Assembly (NCBI GenBank): GCA_017414435.1
Contig: JAFQMN010000001.1
Location: forward strand, 186,001-250,000
DNA length: 64,000 nucleotides
Source of the DNA: Oscillospiraceae bacterium
Lineage (GTDB): Bacteria; Bacillota; Clostridia; Oscillospirales; Ruminococcaceae
Direction: 5' to 3'
The notes beneath the pieces are model-generated. The model had not been told where the DNA came from, did no database searches, and saw nothing but the letters and a program-made list of their open reading frames with translations. A program made the translations under genes and the position numbers. This document shows, one piece after another, positions 19,358-60,559 of the stretch (position 1 is the stretch's first letter; each line of letters begins with the position of its first letter).

Positions 19358-20545
19358 ATGGCTTATAAAAGAATAATTTTAATAAAACCAGGAGAAATTG
19401 CACTAAAAGGGCTTAATAAAAAGAAATTTGAAGCAATACTAAAATCTAATTTAAAAAGAGCAATTACACCTTATGGCGAATTTAAAATAGAAGGAAGCCA
19501 ATCTGTGTTTATTGTACAGGCAATATCTGCAGAGGCGGATATTGAAGTGGCGTATAGCAAAGCAAAAAATGTGTTTGGAATTTCTAAACTTTCTTTGGCT
19601 TATATATGTGAAAAAGATGTTGAAGAGATTAAAAAGTGTAGTATTGTAGCACTGCAAGAATATGGCGGATTTGAAACTTTTAAAATAGAGGCTAAACGTG
19701 CAGATAAAACTTTTAGACCAGATTCTATGACACTTTGCCCTATAATTGGCGACCATGTGCTGAATAAATTCCCAGAAGCAGTTGCAGATATGCACAACCC
19801 CGAAGTGAGAATTGGAATTGAAATTAGGGGACAGGGTGTTTATATATATTTAAATGAAGAGTTCGGTTTGGGCGGTATGCCAGTGGGCTGTTGCCAAACC
19901 GCAAATGTTTTACTTTCTGGTGGGATTGATAGCCCGGTGGCTGCTTTTATGATGGCAAAGCGTGGAATGAATATAAGTTGCACGCATTTTGCAAGCCCGC
20001 CTTATACTAGTGAGTTGGCAAAGGACAAAGTGAAGAAGTTAGTTAAAATTTTAGAAAACTATTGTGGTAAAATTAAATTTAGATGTGTGGAACTCACAAG
20101 AATTCAAGAAGCTATAAAAAAGTTATGCCCAGAAGAACTTTTTACGGTTTTGTTGCGAAGGATTATGTTTAGAATAGCACAAAGTATATCTAAGTTAAAT
20201 GGAGAAAGTGCTATTGTTACCGGTGAAAGCTTAGGGCAGGTTGCTAGCCAAACAATGGAAGCGATTACCTGCACAGATGAAGTTTGCTTTATGCCAGTTT
20301 TTAGACCGCTTATTGGGCTGGACAAAACAGAGATAATTGAAAGGGCAAAAAAGATAGAAACATTCGACATTTCAATTCTGCCGTATGAAGATTGTTGCAC
20401 GGTGTTTGTACCCAAGCATCCAAAAACAAATCCAGAGGTTGAAGCGATAAAACGCGCAGAAGAAAAGCTATATGGAATAATACTTGATACCGAAACCAGT
20501 GAAGTGCTGCCAGAGGTTTATAAAGTAGAAGAATGTTTGTATTAA
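19358..20545 (+). CDS. thiI: tRNA 4-thiouridine synthase ThiI
   Basis: Adds sulfur to U8 of tRNA and, in some species, supports thiazole synthesis. The protein is 395 residues: a ferredoxin-like plus THUMP region (about 1-165), then a PP-loop ATPase domain with L-L-S-G-G-I-D-S-P-V-A around residue 190. There is no C-terminal rhodanese domain, as in other Firmicutes. The ATG at 19358 is chosen because ATAAGGAG precedes it; an upstream ATG at 19334 in the same frame has none. In related bacteria a cysteine desulfurase gene usually adjoins thiI, but none is here. Confidence 0.95.
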   Translation: MAYKRIILIKPGEIALKGLNKKKFEAILKSNLKRAITPYGEFKIEGSQSVFIVQAISAEADIEVAYSKAKNVFGISKLSLAYICEKDVEEIKKCSIVALQEYGGFETFKIEAKRADKTFRPDSMTLCPIIGDHVLNKFPEAVADMHNPEVRIGIEIRGQGVYIYLNEEFGLGGMPVGCCQTANVLLSGGIDSPVAAFMMAKRGMNISCTHFASPPYTSELAKDKVKKLVKILENYCGKIKFRCVELTRIQEAIKKLCPEELFTVLLRRIMFRIAQSISKLNGESAIVTGESLGQVASQTMEAITCTDEVCFMPVFRPLIGLDKTEIIERAKKIETFDISILPYEDCCTVFVPKHPKTNPEVEAIKRAEEKLYGIILDTETSEVLPEVYKVEECLY

Positions 20546-20870: not shown

Positions 20871-21452
20871 ATGGTGCAACTAGATTTTAAAGCACAAAGA
20901 ATAGTTGATGCAAAACAAATGAATATACAATTCGATATGTTGTGCAAATTATTTGGGCAGCCAAAAGAAGATATATACATTTATATTTGTAGATCACAAT
21001 ACGAATTGAAAAAACGTTTACACATAGTTAATGTATTGTTACCAGATTGGGTAGTGGGCGCCAACCACAATGGAAAGATTGCAATTTTAAATAAAAAGCA
21101 ATTAGATGCTAGAGGTTTTCATATAAACACTTTGTGTGCTCACGAAATGGTGCATGTTTTTGTAAATCAATTTGTAGCAAATTGCCCTTTGTGGTTAAAT
21201 GAAGGTTTGGCCCAAAACCTTGTGCCAGAACCAAAAAATACAGCTAACGCTCGGGAACAGATAATTAGCCAAAAACTTTTGAATCCATATAAATTATCAT
21301 ATGATTCAGGGCTTTATTATGTTAGCAAGATAATAGTAGGGAAGTTATTTAAAATATATGGTAAAACACAAATTGTTACACTTTTAAAAAAATGCACAGA
21401 TTTTGAAGACAATAATATCTTTGGTTACACAGCAATTGAAGCTCTATTATAA
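20871..21452 (+). CDS. Gluzincin (peptidase MA-like) putative RiPP protease
   Basis: Soluble protein of 193 residues with a zinc-protease active site: H91-E-M-V-H95, and the third ligand Glu111 in W-L-N-E-G-L-A. The spacing and the W-x-x-E-G-x-A motif are those of the peptidase MA-like family (gluzincins). No signal peptide is seen, so it should act in the cytosol. As first gene of a locus with a radical SAM enzyme, short precursors and an exporter, the likely job is leader removal or peptide processing. That role is inferred from context. Start is ATG behind CAGGAGATATT. The gap to the radical SAM gene is 42 bases. Confidence 0.75.
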   Translation: MVQLDFKAQRIVDAKQMNIQFDMLCKLFGQPKEDIYIYICRSQYELKKRLHIVNVLLPDWVVGANHNGKIAILNKKQLDARGFHINTLCAHEMVHVFVNQFVANCPLWLNEGLAQNLVPEPKNTANAREQIISQKLLNPYKLSYDSGLYYVSKIIVGKLFKIYGKTQIVTLLKKCTDFEDNNIFGYTAIEALL

Positions 21453-21494
21453 AATTTGAAAATACATATAAAATATCAAAAAAGGAGTTTTAGA

Positions 21495-22835
21495 ATGAAA
21501 GCATCTAAATATAATATTGTTTTTGATTATAAAGGAAAAAAATTGGCATTTAATGGACTTTCTGCAGCGTTTGCGGAGATTGATGATAATTTTATTAGAT
21601 TATTAGACAATATAAAAAATATTAAAGAAGATGAACTTAGTGAAAAAGATAAAGACCTATTAGAGGATATGAAGAGAGGTAGTTTTGTCCTAGATGATGA
21701 TACGAACGAACTTAACATAATTAAATTGAATAGTTATCTTGGCAAATTTAGACCCTCTGTTTTGGGTTTAACTATAGCGCCAACTCTTCAGTGCAATTTT
21801 GCTTGCCCATATTGCTATGAGCAACGTCAAACCGGTATGATTTCTAAAGATGTTATAGATGCAATATATAAAAAAGTGCAAGATGCGGCAGAACACAAAA
21901 GTAATATATCTATTAATTGGTATGGTGGTGAGCCGTTGTTGGCAAAAGATGTTATTGCAGAAATGTCTCAAAAAATGATTGAAATTTGTGAGAAAAACAA
22001 TGTTAAATACGATGCATATATTGTTACTAACGGCTATTTAATAAATGAAGAAACTGTAAAAATGTTTAAAAAAGCAAAAATAATGGGAGCACAAATCACA
22101 GTAGATGGTCCACCGGAGATTCATAATGCCAGAAGAAAATTGTGTGATCCAACGATAAAGACTTTTGATGTGATTATAAAAAATATTCAACTGTTAATGA
22201 AAAATGATATACCTGTACATATAAGAATTAATATTGATAGAACTAATATCGATAAATTAGAAGAATTATTGGAAATTTTAACTCAAAATGGATTGCAAAA
22301 ATGCGGAATTGGTTTAGGGCATGTAAAAGATTACACATCAACATGCCAATCTGTTGCTCATGACTGTTTAAGTAATAAAGAATATGCTGAAGAAACTGTG
22401 AAACAACAAAAAATCCTTCTAAAGCATGGATTTCGTACAGTAGATTATCCATATTACCCGGGAGTAAAAGCAAACTATTGTTGTGCAGACAGATTAGACT
22501 CTTTTGTTGTGGGGCATGATGGAGAACTGTATAAATGTTGGAATGATGTTGGAGTGAAAAAGCATAGTGTGGGAAATATTAAAAATGATCTTGCTTTAAC
22601 AAATAGCAACGTTTTACATCAAAAATATTTATTATGGTCTCCATTTAATTATACTGAATGTGTTGAATGTGAATATTTACCGATATGTATGGGTGGGTGC
22701 CCGTTTAATGGAATGAAGTCTGGGAAACCGGAATGTGAAAAATGGGTATACAATCTAATTGACATATTAAAAGTAAGATATGATGCCGAGCAGATGATTT
22801 ATTCACAAAAAGAAAAAGTGAGTACACAAGTATGA
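21495..22835 (+). CDS. Radical SAM/SPASM peptide maturase
   Basis: Enzyme of 446 residues. The SAM-binding [4Fe-4S] motif is Cys100, Cys104 and Cys107 in C-N-F-A-C-P-Y-C-Y-E-Q, followed by the G-G-E-P-L-L strand. The C-terminal SPASM domain has G-E-L-Y-K-C-W and then C-V-E-C-E-Y-L-P-I-C-M-G-G-C-P, supplying ligands for auxiliary clusters. The first 95 residues may be a precursor-binding region. Such enzymes form thioether, C-C or other crosslinks in short peptides. The ATG at 21495 is chosen for its AAAAAAGGAG; an upstream TTG in frame has none. The stop overlaps the next gene by four bases, so the two are translationally coupled. It most resembles maturases of multi-copy Cys-rich peptides in Clostridium. 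Confidence 0.9.
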   Translation: MKASKYNIVFDYKGKKLAFNGLSAAFAEIDDNFIRLLDNIKNIKEDELSEKDKDLLEDMKRGSFVLDDDTNELNIIKLNSYLGKFRPSVLGLTIAPTLQCNFACPYCYEQRQTGMISKDVIDAIYKKVQDAAEHKSNISINWYGGEPLLAKDVIAEMSQKMIEICEKNNVKYDAYIVTNGYLINEETVKMFKKAKIMGAQITVDGPPEIHNARRKLCDPTIKTFDVIIKNIQLLMKNDIPVHIRINIDRTNIDKLEELLEILTQNGLQKCGIGLGHVKDYTSTCQSVAHDCLSNKEYAEETVKQQKILLKHGFRTVDYPYYPGVKANYCCADRLDSFVVGHDGELYKCWNDVGVKKHSVGNIKNDLALTNSNVLHQKYLLWSPFNYTECVECEYLPICMGGCPFNGMKSGKPECEKWVYNLIDILKVRYDAEQMIYSQKEKVSTQV

Positions 22836-23653
22836 TATATGATTTTAAACTACTATATAATGAATCTGTTTTTGAGTTAACGAGAATAAATTTTGATGAA
22901 ACAAAAGCAAAGGCAGAGATCGATGCGATCTTTAATTTTTGCTTTAAGGGTACAAACTGGAATAACGATAGAAAAATATTAAAACGAATACGATGTTGTG
23001 TTAGACAAAGAAAGAAACAAAAGCCTTTGGCATATATACTTGGCTCAGAAATGTGTTATGGTTTAGAGTTTTCGGTAGGACCTGGAGTATTAATTCCAAA
23101 GCCGGGGACAGATTCATATGTGGAAGAAGCACTTAAAAATTTAGAAGGCAAAAAGTCACCTGTGGTAGTAGATTTATGCAGTGGAAGCGGGTGTATGGGT
23201 ATACCAATTGCATATCATAGGCAAGACGCCTTGGTGTATCTTGTAGAAAAAAGTAGAAAAGCGTTCTTTTATCTAGAGAAAAACACGCAAAAGTATAGTT
23301 TAAAAAATGCAAAACCAATTAAAGCAGATATATTTAAAGTAGAGTCGGTGCATAATATTGATTTGATTATTGCAAATCCGCCATATGCAGGAGAAGAAGA
23401 TATGAAATTTTTACCTGAAGAAATGAGATATGAACCGCGTATGGCTTTTGATGGTGGCAAAGATGGTTTTGATTTTTATGAAAAAATATTAAAAAAATGG
23501 CTGCCAGAGCTTAAAAAAGATGGTACGATAATTTTAGGCGCGGCACGAAATACTGACCGAGTTTTAGACTTGCTTAAAATTAACGGACTAAAAACAAATA
23601 ATTTTTTAGATTCTTATGAAAATTCCATGATAATTGTTGGGAAATTTGAGTAA
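22832..23653 (+). CDS. PrmC/HemK-like N5-glutamine methyltransferase in RiPP locus
   Basis: SAM-dependent methyltransferase of 273 residues, normal PrmC length. Signatures are K-P-L-A-Y-I-L-G, V-L-I-P-K-P-G-T-D (PrmC has P-R-P-x-T-E), motif I D-L-C-S-G-S-G, and the catalytic N-P-P-Y. PrmC itself methylates the GGQ glutamine of release factors and is usually encoded beside prfA. Here the ATG overlaps the radical SAM stop as ATGA and six precursor genes follow, so a dedicated role in modifying the peptides is plausible. It could equally be the sole housekeeping PrmC, relocated. Several changed motif residues favour a divergent paralogue. Confidence 0.75.
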   Translation: MIYDFKLLYNESVFELTRINFDETKAKAEIDAIFNFCFKGTNWNNDRKILKRIRCCVRQRKKQKPLAYILGSEMCYGLEFSVGPGVLIPKPGTDSYVEEALKNLEGKKSPVVVDLCSGSGCMGIPIAYHRQDALVYLVEKSRKAFFYLEKNTQKYSLKNAKPIKADIFKVESVHNIDLIIANPPYAGEEDMKFLPEEMRYEPRMAFDGGKDGFDFYEKILKKWLPELKKDGTIILGAARNTDRVLDLLKINGLKTNNFLDSYENSMIIVGKFE

Positions 23654-23675
23654 AGATTTTTGGAGGTGAGAATAT

Positions 23676-23774
23676 ATGAAATATATAGTAAAACCAGAAG
23701 TAGAGTTTAAAGAGGGTTATTGCCATATATGTGGAGTACATTGTTGGGACAATAGGCCGTGTCAGAGATATTAA
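23676..23774 (+). CDS. RiPP precursor peptide 1 (MKYIV leader)
   Basis: 32 residues. The leader M-K-Y-I-V-K-P-E-V-E-F-K-E-G-Y is followed by a core beginning at C16: C-H-I-C-G-V-H-C-W-D-N-R-P-C-Q-R-Y, with four Cys. It lies 22 bases after the methyltransferase behind TGGAGGTGAG. It is the substrate candidate for the adjacent radical SAM enzyme. It is the only member with Trp in the core. Confidence 0.85.
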   Translation: MKYIVKPEVEFKEGYCHICGVHCWDNRPCQRY

Positions 23775-23829
23775 TGTTAAACAATACTCTATTATTTTTA
23801 ATTATGAATAAAAAACGAGGTGAGCAATA

Positions 23830-23913
23830 ATGAAATATATAGTAGAACCCGAAGTAACATTTAAAGAGGGTTATTGTAAGTGTGGGGAATATTGTAGTAG
23901 AAATAGGTATTAA
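23830..23913 (+). CDS. RiPP precursor peptide 2 (MKYIV leader)
   Basis: 27 residues, the shortest member. Leader M-K-Y-I-V-E-P-E-V-T-F-K-E-G-Y, core C-K-C-G-E-Y-C-S-R-N-R-Y with three Cys. The ATG follows CGAGGTGAGCAATA, a weaker site than that of its neighbours. Confidence 0.85.
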   Translation: MKYIVEPEVTFKEGYCKCGEYCSRNRY

Positions 23914-23953
23914 AATATTAAATATTATATTATATGTAAAGGAGGTAAAAAGA

Positions 23954-24046
23954 ATGAAATATATAGTAAAGCCAGAAGTAGAGTTTAAAGAAGGTTATTG
24001 CCATTCAGGCGGCGGTTGCGGAGTTAATTGTAGTAGAAATGGCTAA
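23954..24046 (+). CDS. RiPP precursor peptide 3 (MKYIV leader)
   Basis: 30 residues. Leader M-K-Y-I-V-K-P-E-V-E-F-K-E-G-Y, core C-H-S-G-G-G-C-G-V-N-C-S-R-N-G with three Cys and a Gly-rich centre. AAAGGAGGT precedes the start. It is nearly identical to peptide 6 and differs only at the last four residues. Confidence 0.87.
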   Translation: MKYIVKPEVEFKEGYCHSGGGCGVNCSRNG

Positions 24047-24097
24047 CAATGCGTAAGTAAATTGAATAATATTGCTTTAACAAAGGAGGTGGAAAGA

Positions 24098-24187
24098 ATG
24101 AAGTATATAGTAGAACCAGAGCTAAATTTTAAAGAAGGTTATTGCTATACGGGTTGTAATAAATGTAATAAGTGTTTAAGTTTTTAG
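24098..24187 (+). CDS. RiPP precursor peptide 4 (MKYIV leader)
   Basis: 29 residues. Leader M-K-Y-I-V-E-P-E-L-N-F-K-E-G-Y, core C-Y-T-G-C-N-K-C-N-K-C-L-S-F with four Cys in a C-x3-C-x2-C-x2-C pattern. AAAGGAGGTGG precedes the start. It is the only member with a hydrophobic end. Confidence 0.87.
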   Translation: MKYIVEPELNFKEGYCYTGCNKCNKCLSF

Positions 24188-24249
24188 TTTGATAAACTAA
24201 AAAAGTAGAAAGAATTATATAATTTTGTATGGCAAGGAGGTGAAAAGTT

Positions 24250-24408
24250 ATGAAATATATAGTAGAACCACAAATGGAATATCAATATGGATATTGCTTT
24301 AGAGGAGGAGGTAGACCACCACATGGTGGGCGACCGCCAGGTCCACCACCAGGCCCACCGCCATGTAATCATTGCACAAAATGCATGCATTGTACTGGTA
24401 ATAGATAA
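24250..24408 (+). CDS. RiPP precursor peptide 5, Pro/Gly-rich variant
   Basis: 52 residues, the longest member and the most divergent leader (M-K-Y-I-V-E-P-Q-M-E-Y-Q-Y-G-Y). After C16 comes an insert of Gly, Arg and Pro (R-G-G-G-R-P-P-H-G-G-R-P-P-G-P-P-P, then more G-P-P-P), then C-N-H-C-T-K-C-M-H-C-T-G-N-R with four Cys in C-x2-C-x2-C-x2-C spacing. CAAGGAGGTG precedes the start. The insert reads as tandem expansion of CCACCAGG-like units. Confidence 0.83.
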   Translation: MKYIVEPQMEYQYGYCFRGGGRPPHGGRPPGPPPGPPPCNHCTKCMHCTGNR

Positions 24409-24529
24409 TTGTTTAACAAGCGACAAAGAAATTTATTATAGTGCCAGAGATAATTTGTGGAGCAAATTGCAAGAAAAACAAGTGAACCGGTTTGTGTATA
24501 ATGCTACTTTAACAAAGGAGGTAAAAAGA

Positions 24530-24622
24530 ATGAAATATATAGTAAAACCAGAAGTAGAATTTAAAGAAGGTTATTGCCATTCAGGCGGTGGCTGCGGAGT
24601 TAACTGTGGAAGCAATAAATAG
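24530..24622 (+). CDS. RiPP precursor peptide 6 (MKYIV leader)
   Basis: 30 residues, leader identical to peptide 3 and core C-H-S-G-G-G-C-G-V-N-C-G-S-N-K. AAAGGAGGT precedes the ATG at 24530; a longer in-frame start upstream is ignored because it lacks a ribosome-binding site and reads through the intergenic repeat. Confidence 0.87.
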   Translation: MKYIVKPEVEFKEGYCHSGGGCGVNCGSNK

Positions 24623-24747
24623 AAAGCAACAAGCGAACGTTCAACTATTGCTGTTATAAATTGCAGGGAAATTAATATTTATTATAATAATTGTATTTTA
24701 GGGTAAGTTAGTTGAAAAAATGCAAAATATAAGGAGGGATAAACTAT

Positions 24748-25515
24748 ATGAACAGATCATTACCATCTCTTTTTATTGCTTTGTTAATGTTGTTTCCATC
24801 TGTATTTGTTGCAGAAGCTTCTGGCAGAGGCAGAGGAGGACGTACTAGTTTTACCTCTTCTAGTGCATCAGAAGTGCACACAGAAAAAATAGAGTTAGAA
24901 GCCAAACCATACAAATTAAACATCACGAGGCTTTCTTTACATGATTCACCCAATGTGATTGTTAATATTCATCCTGGAGAAGGTCCTTTTCTTACTGTAA
25001 CTACTGATGCAGAGGCGTTTGGCAATATTGCATTAAATGTTAATAATGCTATGGGCACTATAGATATAAGCAGCCGTACTCAATGCAGAGTGGCTCAATT
25101 TGTTGTTGAATTAACAGTGCCGGTTAATGAACTTAATTGCTCCGGTGGATTTGAAATCAATGCTGTTATTGCAGCGGTACCGGACTTTGCAATGAATACT
25201 GAAGGGGAAATTAATGGCGCACTTCAGATTAATGCAGTCCATAATGTTGCGATTAACAGCGAGGGTGAGAGTAATTTGGTACTTAAAGGTTCGGCAGATA
25301 GTTTAACGTGTAAGTGTGAAGGTGAAGGCAATATTACTGCTCACGAATTGCAAACTCACGATTCAAAACTAGAATTGTCTGGAGAAGGAACAGTTAGTGT
25401 TTCTGCAGACAGAACGTTAAAGGCAGATGCAGAAGGCGAATGGAAGTGTAGCTATGCTGGGACTCCTGCAATAGATTTTAATCCATCGGGGGATTGCAAG
25501 TTACGGAAGATTTAA
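24748..25515 (+). CDS. Secreted GIN-domain (DUF2807) protein in RiPP locus
   Basis: Protein of 255 residues with a signal peptide (M-N-R-S-L-P-S-L-F-I-A-L-L-M-L, cleavage likely after A-E-A), a short Arg/Gly stretch (G-R-G-R-G-G-R), then a repetitive beta-rich domain with rungs such as A-x-N-x-E-G-E-x-N and L-x-x-S-G-E-G-x-V-x-V. This rung pattern is that of the head GIN domain (DUF2807), found in surface proteins. AAGGAGGGA precedes the ATG. Between the precursor array and the exporter, it could be a surface partner or immunity factor for the peptides; that is conjecture. Confidence 0.7.
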   Translation: MNRSLPSLFIALLMLFPSVFVAEASGRGRGGRTSFTSSSASEVHTEKIELEAKPYKLNITRLSLHDSPNVIVNIHPGEGPFLTVTTDAEAFGNIALNVNNAMGTIDISSRTQCRVAQFVVELTVPVNELNCSGGFEINAVIAAVPDFAMNTEGEINGALQINAVHNVAINSEGESNLVLKGSADSLTCKCEGEGNITAHELQTHDSKLELSGEGTVSVSADRTLKADAEGEWKCSYAGTPAIDFNPSGDCKLRKI

Positions 25516-25540
25516 CATTTTTTAAGATCAAATAATAAAA

Positions 25541-25586
25541 AATATCCTCCTTTGTGTGGTAAAAATTAATCACAGGGGAGGATATT
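25541..25586 (+). promoter_or_regulatory. Hairpin that would mask a Shine-Dalgarno before the exporter
   Basis: AATATCCTCC at 25541 pairs perfectly with GGAGGATATT at 25577-25586, with further TGTG/CACA pairing. The right arm contains the GGGGAGG site in front of the ATG at 25589. No T run follows, so it is unlikely to be a terminator. It could control translation of the mini-frame and, by coupling, the exporter. Confidence 0.6.
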
Positions 25587-25588
25587 AT

Positions 25589-25630
25589 ATGAATTTAAGA
25601 AGGGAATTCTCTGTGTATGCAGCACAATAA
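25589..25630 (+). CDS. 13-codon mini-ORF overlapping the exporter start
   Basis: M-N-L-R-R-E-F-S-V-Y-A-A-Q, with a strong GGGGAGG behind it and ending 14 bases inside the exporter gene in another frame. It may be a leader for translational coupling rather than a functional peptide. Confidence 0.35.
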   Translation: MNLRREFSVYAAQ

Positions 25631-27290
25631 AAGCAACTTTGGTAAATATCTTTTTAAATTATTAAAACATTATATTAATGCCGAAACAATAGGTTTAATT
25701 TCTTCTGTATTGTTAAGTGTTACAGTTGTGATTACACCGTATATGTCTAAACGTTTAATTGATACAATTGTAAAAACAAAAATGCTTTCAAGTGTAAAAA
25801 CAGACATGTTTATTTTTTTAGGTGCATGTTTTTTGCAGTCAGTTTTTATTTATCTTAATACCCGTGTTTTCTCGTATTTATCTAATAAAATGACATTTAG
25901 AATAAGAAACAAACTATTTTGCAAAATATTAAAAGCACCTTTAACGTTTTTTGAAAAGGTAACATCTGGGACGATTATTGCACGTTTAATGAATGACAGT
26001 GATGACTTTAGTTTATTTTTGAATGATTTTATGTTTTCGGTTTTTCAAAATATTCTATATGTTGCATTAATAGTTATTGGTATGTTGTTTATTTCTATGC
26101 CAATAACTTTAATGCTGGGTTGTATTTTGTTAATATTTATAATTTTTAACATATTAGTAGGAAAGCATATTGAAAGAGTTTCGGCTAAAATTTTAAAAGA
26201 AAAAGATAACTTGTTAACTGATATTAAACAAAATATAAATAATATTGAATCGGTAAAGACATTAACTATTGAAGATTATCTGAAGAAACACTTTTTTGAA
26301 GCCACGGCACATGTTTGTGATTTTAATATACAAAAAAGCAAGAGATATGCAATGATAGACAGTATAAATAATGCTATAATTGTTAGTGCTATGGTTATAA
26401 TATATTGTTTTGGTTTTTATTTAATAACTAGAGATTATTTAACTATAGGCAGTGTAATTGCTTTTGATGTTTATTTTCAAATGATGATAAATCCGATTCA
26501 ACAGTTAATTAATGCTAATATAAAATTTAGAGAGATAAAACCTACCTTAAAACGTTTAGCAGATTTTTTAGATATAGAAAATGAAAAATCTAATGAAATT
26601 ATATTTAAAAGAAAAGAAAAACAAATATGCTTTAAAAATGTTAGCTTTCAATATGAAAATACAAATAACCTTGTTATTGACAATGTAAGTTTTTGTTTAA
26701 AAGGAAATGGTCTTTACGGAGTTGTAGGGGAGTCAGGTTCTGGCAAAAGCACACTGGCACGTTTAATTTTGGATTTATATAAACCAACGAATGGTAATAT
26801 TAAAATTGAGCTGGAAACAGATATGAAACCAGAGAAGAGCAATGCTATAAGAGAATATGTAAGATACACATCACAGACAATGCAATTGTTTAATAAAACA
26901 GTTTTTCAAAATTTAAAATTAGATGAACCAAATATTTTAGATGAAGAAATTATGACAATATGCAAACGTTTAAACCTTCACAACAAAATAGAAAGCTTGC
27001 CGGAGAAATATAATACGGTTATAACAGAAAATATTAATTTTTCTGGTGGAGAAATTCAAAGACTTGTATTAGCTAGAACATATTTAAAACATGCAGAGAT
27101 TAATATATTAGATGAAATTACATCTGCATTAGATAAAGATAATATGTTATTAGTGCAGAATGTTATTGAAGAGATGGCGAAAACAAGTTTGGTATTATTG
27201 ATAACACATGATAAAGAAGTATTAAAAAATGCAAAATCAATTTTGCAAATTGAAAATGGAAAACTTTGCATAAAAGATATTAACATGTAA
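25617..27290 (+). CDS. ABC exporter (fused membrane and ATPase domains)
   Basis: Half-transporter of 557 residues. The N-terminal half has about six membrane helices (15-300) and the C-terminal half is the ATPase: Walker A G-E-S-G-S-G-K-S-T at about 371-379, signature F-S-G-G-E-I-Q-R at about 475, Walker B I-N-I-L-D-E-I just before 500, and the switch His in L-I-T-H-D-K. There is no C39 protease domain, so leader removal must be done elsewhere, perhaps by the gluzincin at 20871. By position it is the export pump for the matured peptides. The ATG at 25617 has AAGGGA upstream and lies inside the mini-frame at 25589. Confidence 0.88.
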   Translation: MQHNKSNFGKYLFKLLKHYINAETIGLISSVLLSVTVVITPYMSKRLIDTIVKTKMLSSVKTDMFIFLGACFLQSVFIYLNTRVFSYLSNKMTFRIRNKLFCKILKAPLTFFEKVTSGTIIARLMNDSDDFSLFLNDFMFSVFQNILYVALIVIGMLFISMPITLMLGCILLIFIIFNILVGKHIERVSAKILKEKDNLLTDIKQNINNIESVKTLTIEDYLKKHFFEATAHVCDFNIQKSKRYAMIDSINNAIIVSAMVIIYCFGFYLITRDYLTIGSVIAFDVYFQMMINPIQQLINANIKFREIKPTLKRLADFLDIENEKSNEIIFKRKEKQICFKNVSFQYENTNNLVIDNVSFCLKGNGLYGVVGESGSGKSTLARLILDLYKPTNGNIKIELETDMKPEKSNAIREYVRYTSQTMQLFNKTVFQNLKLDEPNILDEEIMTICKRLNLHNKIESLPEKYNTVITENINFSGGEIQRLVLARTYLKHAEINILDEITSALDKDNMLLVQNVIEEMAKTSLVLLITHDKEVLKNAKSILQIENGKLCIKDINM

Positions 27291-27305: not shown

Positions 27306-27337
27306 AAAGTCATCCTAAAAGTTATAGGGTGGCTTTT
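27306..27337 (+). terminator. Terminator closing the RiPP-like locus
   Basis: AAAGTCATCCTA pairs with TAGGGTGGCTTT (12 bp, two G-T pairs) followed by a short T run. Confidence 0.7.
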
Positions 27338-39351: not shown

Positions 39352-40512
39352 TTAGATTGCTTGTTCAGATTCTAAACGTTTTGCCTGGTTGAACATGAGT
39401 TGTGCGCGGGCTTGAGAAACTTCGTCTTGAAGATTGATTTTTTCCCAAACTATAGAAAAGTCAGATTCGAAATCGTGCAGCCTTAACCACAATCTTACAA
39501 TTTTACTTATTATAGGAGATAAAATTCGGCGATAGCTTTGAATCTCGCTAATTAAAATCTCACATTGCTGTTTGCTCATGCGTTCTGTAGTGGACCAATT
39601 AAGGCCTAATAGAAATGGAGGAATGCTTAATTTAGCTACGATCTGTTCAAGCATCTGGCGCACTGGGGCTGTGGTATCTATTGCATTATTATCTGCGCCT
39701 ATGACCTTAATTTCCATATCACCGATTGCTACAAAGTCGCGAATATTGCCATCGCTTGGAGTCTGCATTGTTTTTTCCCACTGAGTTGCTATATTTTGTG
39801 CTATCTCTTGCACGGAATCGATTTCTACACTGGGGTCTGGTTTGTAATTAACGGCAAATCTAACATTACCAATTCTATCGAAATTCGAACCAATTGCAGT
39901 GTAGATTTTCATTAAGATATTACCAACTAACTGCAGACCTTTAATTAGTGAATTACCATTAACTTCACCGGCTGATGGGTTTAATGCCGAAAATAATAAT
40001 AGTTGTGGGCATTTTATTCTTTGAGGTGATAGTGAGTTTGCGTTTAACCAAAATTCAGTTGCAATTGAATTAGAACTACGTTTGGCTTGAATTTGAGTTA
40101 CGTTAGCATTAAATAGGGCAAGTATATCTGAATTGTTTGAATTTAAAATAATTTCGCCTATAGCGTTACCATATGTTAGTAAACTATCTAAATAACAGGT
40201 TATGAAATTATTTATACCGTTACCATTACCTACAATTATTACATTATCTAAAAAATTATTGACCTGCTTAGAGATAATAGGATTTGAAGTATCTATTTTA
40301 AAACCACCGATTAATCGGATGATTTTACTTATTGCTGCATCTACAATGGGAATAGAATCTCTAATTGTTTTATAGTTTTTTAAATCCAGTTGAGTTACAC
40401 TATCTGCTTCTATATCTGCAAAAACGGAAGAATTTGAAGGGCTAGTTTGAGTGCAGATTTGTGTAGCGGCTTTAGGTTTGTTTTTAGCTTTTTGAAACAT
40501 TTTCATATTCAT
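39352..40512 (-). CDS. Orphan phage portal-like protein
   Basis: Protein of 386 residues with features of tailed-phage portal proteins: an early helical region, L-T-Y-G-N-A-I-G-E-I-I-L (the portal L-x-G-N-A motif), a central beta/alpha domain, and near the C terminus L-L-G-L-N-W-S-T-T-E-R-M-S followed by a long helix. In phages the portal forms the ring through which DNA is packaged. No terminase, protease or capsid gene is near it, and the frame is intact. TAAAGGAGAG lies upstream on the reverse strand. It may be a prophage remnant or a domesticated gene. Confidence 0.65.
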   Translation of the reverse strand: MNMKMFQKAKNKPKAATQICTQTSPSNSSVFADIEADSVTQLDLKNYKTIRDSIPIVDAAISKIIRLIGGFKIDTSNPIISKQVNNFLDNVIIVGNGNGINNFITCYLDSLLTYGNAIGEIILNSNNSDILALFNANVTQIQAKRSSNSIATEFWLNANSLSPQRIKCPQLLLFSALNPSAGEVNGNSLIKGLQLVGNILMKIYTAIGSNFDRIGNVRFAVNYKPDPSVEIDSVQEIAQNIATQWEKTMQTPSDGNIRDFVAIGDMEIKVIGADNNAIDTTAPVRQMLEQIVAKLSIPPFLLGLNWSTTERMSKQQCEILISEIQSYRRILSPIISKIVRLWLRLHDFESDFSIVWEKINLQDEVSQARAQLMFNQAKRLESEQAI

Positions 40513-59115: not shown

Positions 59116-59131
59116 TGTGAAAGGTGTTTTT

Positions 59132-60559
59132 ATGAATATTAAAACTGGCGAACTAAAAAAAATTGCACCAATGGGCTTAATGCTTATGTTTATCATGTTC
59201 ATTGGGGGAATTGTATCTCCTATGCGAGACACACTAATGGTTAAAGTAGCCACGTGTGGCGGAGCAGGAACAACAGTAATACTTAAATTAGTGTCAGCAC
59301 CTTTAGCTTCCATATTATTAATGGCAGTTTTCATTAAGTTAACTAAAAAGTATAGCACAGCACAAGTATTAACTCTGGTGGTGCTATTTTTTGTGGGCTT
59401 TTTTCTATTGTTTGGCACTATACTTTTTCCACTGCGCAACTATTTGCAGATGAGTGAAGCTACAATAAAATATTGGCAAGATATTTTCCCACACGCTCAT
59501 TGGATTATTGTTTGTGTGGGCAATTGGCTTCTTTCTTTGTTTTATATAATGGCTGCTTTGTGGACAATTGCGGCTCTGCCATTAACTTTTTGGCATATAG
59601 CAAATACATATACAACAAAAGAGGAGGCAAAGAAATATTTTGGCTTTTTAAATTTGCTAGGTCCTGTGGGCGGATACTCTGCGGGGCAATTTTCTCAATA
59701 TTTAAACAAAAAATTTAACAATGCTAGTAATTATGAACAATGTGTAATGTGGCAATTAATTGCAACAGGGCTTGTGGGAGCGTTTTTAATTTTAACATGC
59801 CGCTTTCTTTTTAAAAAAGTTATTAAAGATTATGCTCCAATGGCATCACAGATGAGAAGTAAAGAAAAGATGGGAGTATGGAATAGTATAAAATATATTG
59901 CAACAGACAAAAAAGCAGCGTGTGTAGCAATACTTGCAGCAAGCTACTACATGGTTATGAACCCGGTTGAAGCGGCATGGAAAGATCAAATGAAAATTGC
60001 CAGCAGCAATGCATCTGAATTTAATGCTATAAACAGTAATACTTTATCATGGATCAGTATAATAATAATAGTGTTAAGTTTGGTTATGACAGTTACTTTA
60101 AACAAGTTCAAATGGCAAACAACAGCAATCATCACTCCAGTTTTGCTTGGCACATTTGGCCTTAGCTTTATGATAATTAGTGAGCAAGTTAATGTTTGGG
60201 GTTCTAACGTAATATTGGATGGCAAGGCATTGGTAAAATGGGCAATTATAGTAGGGATAATAGCCATTTGTGTTACAAAAGGGTGTAAAAAATCGGTATT
60301 CGATACCACAAAAAATTTAGCTTATCGTATTTTAGCTCCAGAAGATAGACTAAAAGCAAGACTTGCCACAGAAACTTGTGGTTCTCGTATGGGTGAAGTA
60401 ATAGGGAATTCAATTCCGGCGATTCTTACAAATGTAATATTTCCAGGCACATCAATAATTTCTAAACAAGTTCTGCCATGCATAATTGTTTTTACTATCA
60501 CAGGCTTAATTATCTGGTTTTTTGTAATAAGTAAGATAGAAAAGTATACAGTAGAATAA
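59132..60559 (+). CDS. ADP/ATP translocase (NTT family nucleotide transporter)
   Basis: 475 residues with about eleven to twelve membrane helices. It matches the ATP:ADP antiporter family of Chlamydia and Rickettsia: R-D-T-L-M-V in helix 2, E-A-A-W-K-D-Q-M-K (Chlamydia Npt1 has E-V-T-W-K-S-Q-L-K), and K-K-S-V-F-D-T-T-K-N-L-A-Y followed by a basic D-R-L-K-A-R-L-A-T-E-T. The family exchanges host ATP for bacterial ADP or imports nucleotides with protons. AAAGGTG precedes the ATG at 59132. It is a single gene bounded by its own promoter and terminator. Which nucleotides it moves cannot be read from the sequence. Confidence 0.9.
   Translation: MNIKTGELKKIAPMGLMLMFIMFIGGIVSPMRDTLMVKVATCGGAGTTVILKLVSAPLASILLMAVFIKLTKKYSTAQVLTLVVLFFVGFFLLFGTILFPLRNYLQMSEATIKYWQDIFPHAHWIIVCVGNWLLSLFYIMAALWTIAALPLTFWHIANTYTTKEEAKKYFGFLNLLGPVGGYSAGQFSQYLNKKFNNASNYEQCVMWQLIATGLVGAFLILTCRFLFKKVIKDYAPMASQMRSKEKMGVWNSIKYIATDKKAACVAILAASYYMVMNPVEAAWKDQMKIASSNASEFNAINSNTLSWISIIIIVLSLVMTVTLNKFKWQTTAIITPVLLGTFGLSFMIISEQVNVWGSNVILDGKALVKWAIIVGIIAICVTKGCKKSVFDTTKNLAYRILAPEDRLKARLATETCGSRMGEVIGNSIPAILTNVIFPGTSIISKQVLPCIIVFTITGLIIWFFVISKIEKYTVE

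Follow-up and report, generated by a model that had tools for sequence, protein, structure and literature searches.

A Clo7bot-family peptide locus with six precursor genes and a PrmC-like methyltransferase gene in a reduced clostridial genome

The 64,000 nucleotide stretch analysed here (the window; positions 186,001 to 250,000 of contig JAFQMN010000001.1, assembly GCA_017414435.1, from an Oscillospiraceae bacterium) carries, between 20,871 and 27,290, a locus of the Clo7bot family of ribosomally synthesised and post-translationally modified peptides (RiPPs). It has the precursors and maturase of this family, an operon layout, a conserved set of partner genes and intact catalytic motifs. The explanation that best accounts for these together, and which is likely to be correct, is a Clo7bot-class RiPP operon in which a radical S-adenosylmethionine (SAM)/SPASM maturase, CtpM, would introduce thioether cross-links guided by the precursor leader, a gluzincin would remove that leader, and an ATP-binding cassette (ABC) transporter would export the product. 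The family is already named, since the precursors are TIGR04333 peptides and the enzyme is the matching TIGR04334 maturase. What is new is the unexpected host, a PrmC paralogue that appears to be dedicated to this locus, and a parts list absent from the sources found. All 11 frames are open and on the + strand on direct reading of the sequence, and the five enzyme or transport genes that the initial annotation had placed around six short frames on this strand each lie where it had put them.

The six precursors form a tandem array (23676-24622, +). Against TIGR04333 (Clo7bot family Cys-rich peptide), precursor 1 (32 residues, MKYIVKPEVEFKEGYCHICGVHCWDNRPCQRY, 23676..23774, +) scores 38.6 bits (7e-10), over the curated cut-off of 31; precursor 2 (27 residues, MKYIVEPEVTFKEGYCKCGEYCSRNRY, 23830..23913, +) scores 34.5 bits, precursor 3 (30 residues, MKYIVKPEVEFKEGYCHSGGGCGVNCSRNG, 23954..24046, +) 41.7 bits, precursor 4 (29 residues, MKYIVEPELNFKEGYCYTGCNKCNKCLSF, 24098..24187, +) 32.3 bits in the genome search, and precursor 6 (30 residues, MKYIVKPEVEFKEGYCHSGGGCGVNCGSNK, 24530..24622, +) 36.8 bits. 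Precursor 5 (52 residues with a Pro/Gly-rich insert, MKYIVEPQMEYQYGYCFRGGGRPPHGGRPPGPPPGPPPCNHCTKCMHCTGNR, 24250..24408, +) is below the cut-off, at 24.1 bits. The five precursors scanned against NCBIfam match this model with E values of 7e-11 to 2e-5, and five of the six exceed the cut-off, either alone or with neighbouring residues, with precursor 5 at 21-24 bits. This similarity is far beyond chance. Genome-wide there are six TIGR04333 matches, all within the array, and the 64 kb window has no further frame with such a start. All six begin MKYIV(K/E)P, have Y15-C16, and follow a GAGG or GGAGG Shine-Dalgarno sequence, as described initially; residues 1-16 are 63-100% identical in every pair, while the cores are diverse in sequence and length. 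The Clo7bot family, which the initial annotation had named, is the right one by hidden Markov model (HMM) for precursors and maturase alike. The array begins 841 bases past the maturase, with the PrmC-like gene the only one between them, and the pairing of precursors with a maturase is also seen in other loci.

When about 1500 genomes, plasmid and phage collections, and GTDB contigs were searched, the family proved sparse, with no relatives in viral contigs. Taking a true Clo7bot locus to be a maturase close to TIGR04334 together with leader-sharing precursors, there are seven: that of the window, L078 (genome G487), L090 (Paraclostridium bifermentans plasmid NZ_CP079738.1), L027 (an R. flavefaciens metagenome-assembled genome), and L106, L107 and L108, from three genomes of one genus, a sister genus in the window's own family. 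There are ten precursors in L078, at least eight in L090, and nine in L027, against six in the window. The initial annotation had named beforehand the absence of such precursors beside related maturases as the finding that would overturn it; leader-sharing precursors adjoin the maturase in all six other true loci and in one more distant locus. The P. bifermentans plasmid resembles the window in having, on one strand, tandem leader-sharing Cys-rich precursors, CtpM (named ctpM in RefSeq), a gluzincin annotated only as a hypothetical protein, an ABC exporter and a DUF4097/Toastrack gene. It differs in gene order, in its maturase, which is 52% identical, and in lacking the PrmC-like gene that in the window stands between maturase and precursors; the window cores are also mostly shorter. 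In genome G1133, from the window genome's genus, a distant maturase (34% identity; L110, 577-4295) is followed by two radical-SAM-like frames with CxxxCxxC near the N-terminus, and thus lies in a cluster of another kind.

The maturase (446 aa, 21495..22835, +) matches TIGR04334 at 2e-173 and 577 bits, under the equivalog cut-off of 600, as its best model by a wide margin, the next-best NCBIfam model being TIGR04463 at 284 bits. The sister-genus enzymes score 590-605 bits on the same model. In the maturase tree the window enzyme groups with that of genome G1115 (605 bits; support 99/95), and so shares one clade with enzymes above the cut-off, while those of G487 (775 bits) and P. bifermentans are in an enclosing set with support of only 86/94. 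The corresponding enzymes of the other Clo7bot loci are 46-59% identical to that of the window. In the latter, the radical SAM motif CxxxCxxC lies at residues 100-107 (C100-C104-C107) and a C-terminal SPASM CX2CX5CX3C at 389-402, with a match to the SPASM domain TIGR04085 (3e-16). The enzyme would therefore appear, from its sequence, to work like CtpM, although it is formally just below the curated TIGR04334 line.

Upstream of the maturase is the gluzincin-type zinc metallopeptidase (193 aa, 20871..21452, +), the proposed leader peptidase. It has HExxH, and its Pfam matches are all below cut-off (Peptidase_MA_2, E 5e-4; Peptidase_M1, E 1e-3). HExxH and the downstream glutamate in WL(N/D)EGLA are invariant across six gluzincins. 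Of the seven TIGR04333/TIGR04334 loci, six have a gluzincin; an HMM built without the L106 and L108 sequences recovered these two at 1.5e-37 and 9.6e-35. The gluzincin HMM has no match in some 60 loci whose maturases are related but of another kind. The exporter (557 aa, 25617..27290, +) has fused membrane (ABC_membrane, PF00664) and ATPase (ABC_tran, PF00005) domains and no C39 peptidase domain in Pfam, as had been claimed, and a homologue 31-39% identical to it is in each of the other six true loci. Because of this distribution, both the gluzincin and the C39-less exporter appear to be parts of the Clo7bot system. With an exporter that lacks a C39 domain, and with the two genes occurring together, the gluzincin would be the natural leader peptidase, which gains support from the co-occurrence and from the invariant HExxH...E site; it would cut off the leader in the cytosol, and the exporter would then ship the product out. 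There is precedent for a zinc metallopeptidase in this role in AplP, an M1 family enzyme of a class III lanthipeptide, likewise a gluzincin-type metallopeptidase proposed for leader removal (PMC10885120). The Clo7bot peptidase differs from AplP in being about 200 residues and not M1 over cut-off, with leader cleavage putative.

Between the array and the exporter is a protein (255 aa, 24748..25515, +) with an N-terminal signal-like segment and a match to PF10988 (DUF2807; 3e-19, 69.9 bits, gathering cut-off 24.2). The Toastrack domain unites DUF2807, DUF4097 and DUF2154, and is proposed to build signalling complexes just beneath the membrane on its cytoplasmic side (PMC11237479). The signal-like segment, read by eye in the window and in L078, suggests that these proteins are exported. 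A DUF4097 gene directly follows the exporter in P. bifermentans, and in L077, the locus that is more distant, the precursors are followed by a DUF4097 protein (9e-12), the only such match in that 1.6 Mb genome. In L027 a weak match to DUF4097 (0.003, below cut-off) comes right after three extra precursors, and L078 has a lipoprotein-like gene of similar repeat pattern, with no Pfam match, just upstream of its precursors. In leave-one-out HMMs the candidates of L027, L077 and L078 ranked first among open reading frames outside the training set, with E values of only 0.09-1.5, that of L090 ranked lower, and the window protein was not recovered. Because these values are weak, the L078 gene is listed as probable. 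The three extra Clo7bot-type precursors of L027 (13319-13812) stand apart from its main array, right before the DUF4097-like gene.

Toastrack thus appears, by domain matches, to be a frequent but not universal part of such loci, where as a beta-repeat envelope protein it may work with the exported peptides or sense them. It shares the DUF2807/DUF4097 domain with the Toastrack proteins of the Psp/Lia envelope-stress network (PMC11237479), from which it differs in its RiPP operon setting and its signal-like N-terminus; the operon has no PspC, LiaF or two-component genes. It had been suggested that the combination with a methyltransferase and a GIN-domain protein may be new. The GIN part does not hold, since Toastrack recurs beside such maturases, while the methyltransferase is found only here.

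The unit is closed by a terminator-like hairpin (27306..27336, +; a 12-pair stem, then a T-rich tail), and is flanked on the left by a gene reading as thiI, which ends at 20545, and on the right by one reading as rubredoxin, from about 27520. Before the exporter there is a 15 bp RNA hairpin (25542..25585, +) with a fold z-score of -4.0, equalled in stability by 0 of 200 shuffles. It buries the Shine-Dalgarno sequence of a 13-codon mini-ORF (25589-25630) that overlaps the exporter start, a possible translational control or switch. No RNA family was found by Rfam in 19-28.5 kb of the window. PADLOC matches to a viperin-like radical SAM core, a methyltransferase and an ABC ATPase reflect general superfamily similarity only, and a defence-system reading was rejected.

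Several points weigh against the reading of the locus as a Clo7bot-class operon with the parts assigned above. L107 has no gluzincin within its 18 kb stretch, which means either that another peptidase can do the job or that this cluster is decaying, and Toastrack was not detected in any of the three sister-genus clusters (L106-L108). Structure prediction gave models too poor to use both for the gluzincin, from an alignment of two sequences, and for the Toastrack homologue of R. flavefaciens, from one sequence, with mean predicted local distance difference test scores of 41 and 44. A literature search by Clo7bot and model names found no publication on a Clo7bot product or bond. The remaining two points concern the PrmC-like gene, which is in no other Clo7bot locus examined, and the cores, only one of which contains Gln.

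This gene (273 aa, 22832..23653, +), which has a 4-base overlap between its ATG and the stop of the maturase, encodes a protein of the PrmC/HemK methyltransferase family that matches TIGR03534 at 1e-51 and 175.8 bits, short of the cut-off of 199.1. Its NPPY and EPrmAfdGGkDGfDFY motifs align to solved HemK. A housekeeping PrmC elsewhere in the same genome exceeds the cut-off, at 246.9 bits; the window protein departs from it in the N-terminal part but retains the NPPY site. The enzyme appears to be a dedicated paralogue, the sole part peculiar to the window locus. Co-translated with the maturase, it would probably methylate the side-chain amide nitrogen of Gln or Asn in the peptides, which are its presumed target. 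The cores were examined for a PrmC targeting rule (e.g. GGQ-like sites), and none emerged. It may instead have nothing to do with the peptides and be a second release-factor or ribosomal-protein glutamine methyltransferase that sits in the operon by chance, an alternative that is less probable but must be taken seriously. Its catalytic motifs are those of PrmC, and both its absence from the other loci and the near lack of Gln in the cores would fit. Against this, the genome has a better PrmC, the N-terminal part is unlike that of the housekeeping enzyme, its frame and the stop codon of the maturase overlap in a genome of only 0.94 Mb, and PrmC paralogues with other targets are documented (PMC5300114).

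The candidate tailoring genes differ in other loci. A GNAT gene, instead of a PrmC-like gene, is beside the exporter in L078, L106 and L108, and in L106 (2521-6410) and L108 (2933-6772) genes for GNAT, an AMP-ligase and acyl carrier protein come after the precursors. The window genome itself has a second, more distant maturase (contig G000:C9, L076 9689-13420; 364 bits) beside GNAT, AMP-ligase and acyl carrier protein-like genes, where no precursor peptide was recognised. The presence of these genes in L106, L108 and beside the second maturase suggests an acylated branch of the Clo7bot family. The region of the second maturase also adjoins genes resembling a phage tail module.

The window genome is 935 kb at 98% completeness, with 35% G+C in the window, and has two ATP/ADP translocases, one in the window (59117-60559, +; PF03219, 277 bits) and one at G000:C8:259376-260893 (518 bits). 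It has been reported that, within the Acutalibacteraceae, such translocases are exclusive to a clade of putative intracellular energy parasites with genomes of 0.86-1.4 Mb and 30-39% G+C, some with two translocases (PMC10579323). The window genome shares the size, G+C and translocases of this clade, to which we infer that it belongs; it differs in its RiPP cluster, there being no mention of a RiPP, bacteriocin or radical SAM cluster in the main text of that study. The maturases nearest that of the window belong to three 0.7-0.9 Mb genomes of the same family (G1115, G1263 and G1313), with tree support of 99/95; by their size, these genomes would also be in the clade. The host is therefore probably a reduced, ATP-importing gut clostridium that lives inside other cells. 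On the strand opposite most genes (39352-40512, -) there is also a weak match to a phage portal protein (1.7e-6, below cut-off).

Given such a host, a reduced clostridium with ATP/ADP translocases, the peptides would probably be active where this bacterium meets a eukaryotic host cell or bacterial competitors. They could alternatively be signalling molecules or metal carriers, and not antagonistic or host-directed effectors, which we think is a minority prospect but far from a negligible one. The P. bifermentans plasmid has an agr-type cluster some 7 kb upstream of its Clo7bot array, although agr-type annotation was neither looked for nor seen near the unannotated loci, and Cys-rich multi-copy peptides would suit metal handling. 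That each locus has several to ten cores, and that these diverge, suggests diversification driven by antagonism and not one conserved signal.

One leader-guided maturase acting on several cores is standard RiPP logic, and CtpM would recognise the shared 15-residue leader of the six precursors and cross-link the core cysteines, most likely by thioether bonds to carbon atoms in other residues. Residues 22-408 of the maturase are matched by the solved structure PDB 5wgg, which we take to be CteB, the SCIFF thioether maturase, and because this match covers most of the enzyme, thioethers are the best guess. The maturase also matches the PapB family (1e-36, NCBIfam), in which one promiscuous, leader-guided enzyme processes varied cores (PMC9413430). 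Like CteB and PapB, it is a SPASM maturase of short Cys-rich peptides, similar over most of its length; unlike them, it has another precursor family with many precursors per locus, and a dedicated gluzincin and exporter. It is possible, but unlikely, that the same operon encodes a maturase that epimerises or makes carbon-carbon or other cross-links, for instance at the aromatic residue before Cys16, with the cysteines forming disulfides or binding metal after export. In most precursors across all loci the residue preceding the first core Cys is aromatic, cyclophane-forming enzymes are among the SPASM relatives that the maturase matches, and Cys-rich CxxC patterns could bind metal. The aromatic position is not strict, however, with Ala-Met-Cys and Ser-Ala-Cys in L027, and the characterised relatives that match best over the full length, CteB and PapB, form thioethers. 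That the cluster is a decaying passenger that makes nothing in a shrinking genome is very improbable, despite the many pseudogenes of published clade members (PMC10579323) and a same-genus genome (G1133) with only a distant maturase, as none of the eleven frames is interrupted, the precursors are preceded by ribosome-binding sites, the catalytic motifs are preserved, and three genomes of 0.7-0.9 Mb have retained related clusters.

Clo7bot peptides have been named, but no structure or role for them was found in the literature, and the parts list of maturase, gluzincin, exporter and, often, Toastrack makes in vitro reconstitution straightforward. The PrmC paralogue, like the GNAT and acyl-ligase/acyl carrier protein genes of relatives, suggests tailoring chemistry on the peptides. 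As a speculation, which may well prove wrong, reduced intracellular clostridia that import ATP would keep a multi-peptide RiPP arsenal, with Toastrack a previously unrecognised frequent part, of cross-linked peptides (side-chain N-methylated here, acylated in the sister genus) released into the eukaryotic host cell or against co-resident symbionts. One would not expect a peptide pathway to be retained in genomes smaller than 1 Mb whose owners appear to draw ATP from a host, and its retention suggests a role in an intracellular way of life.

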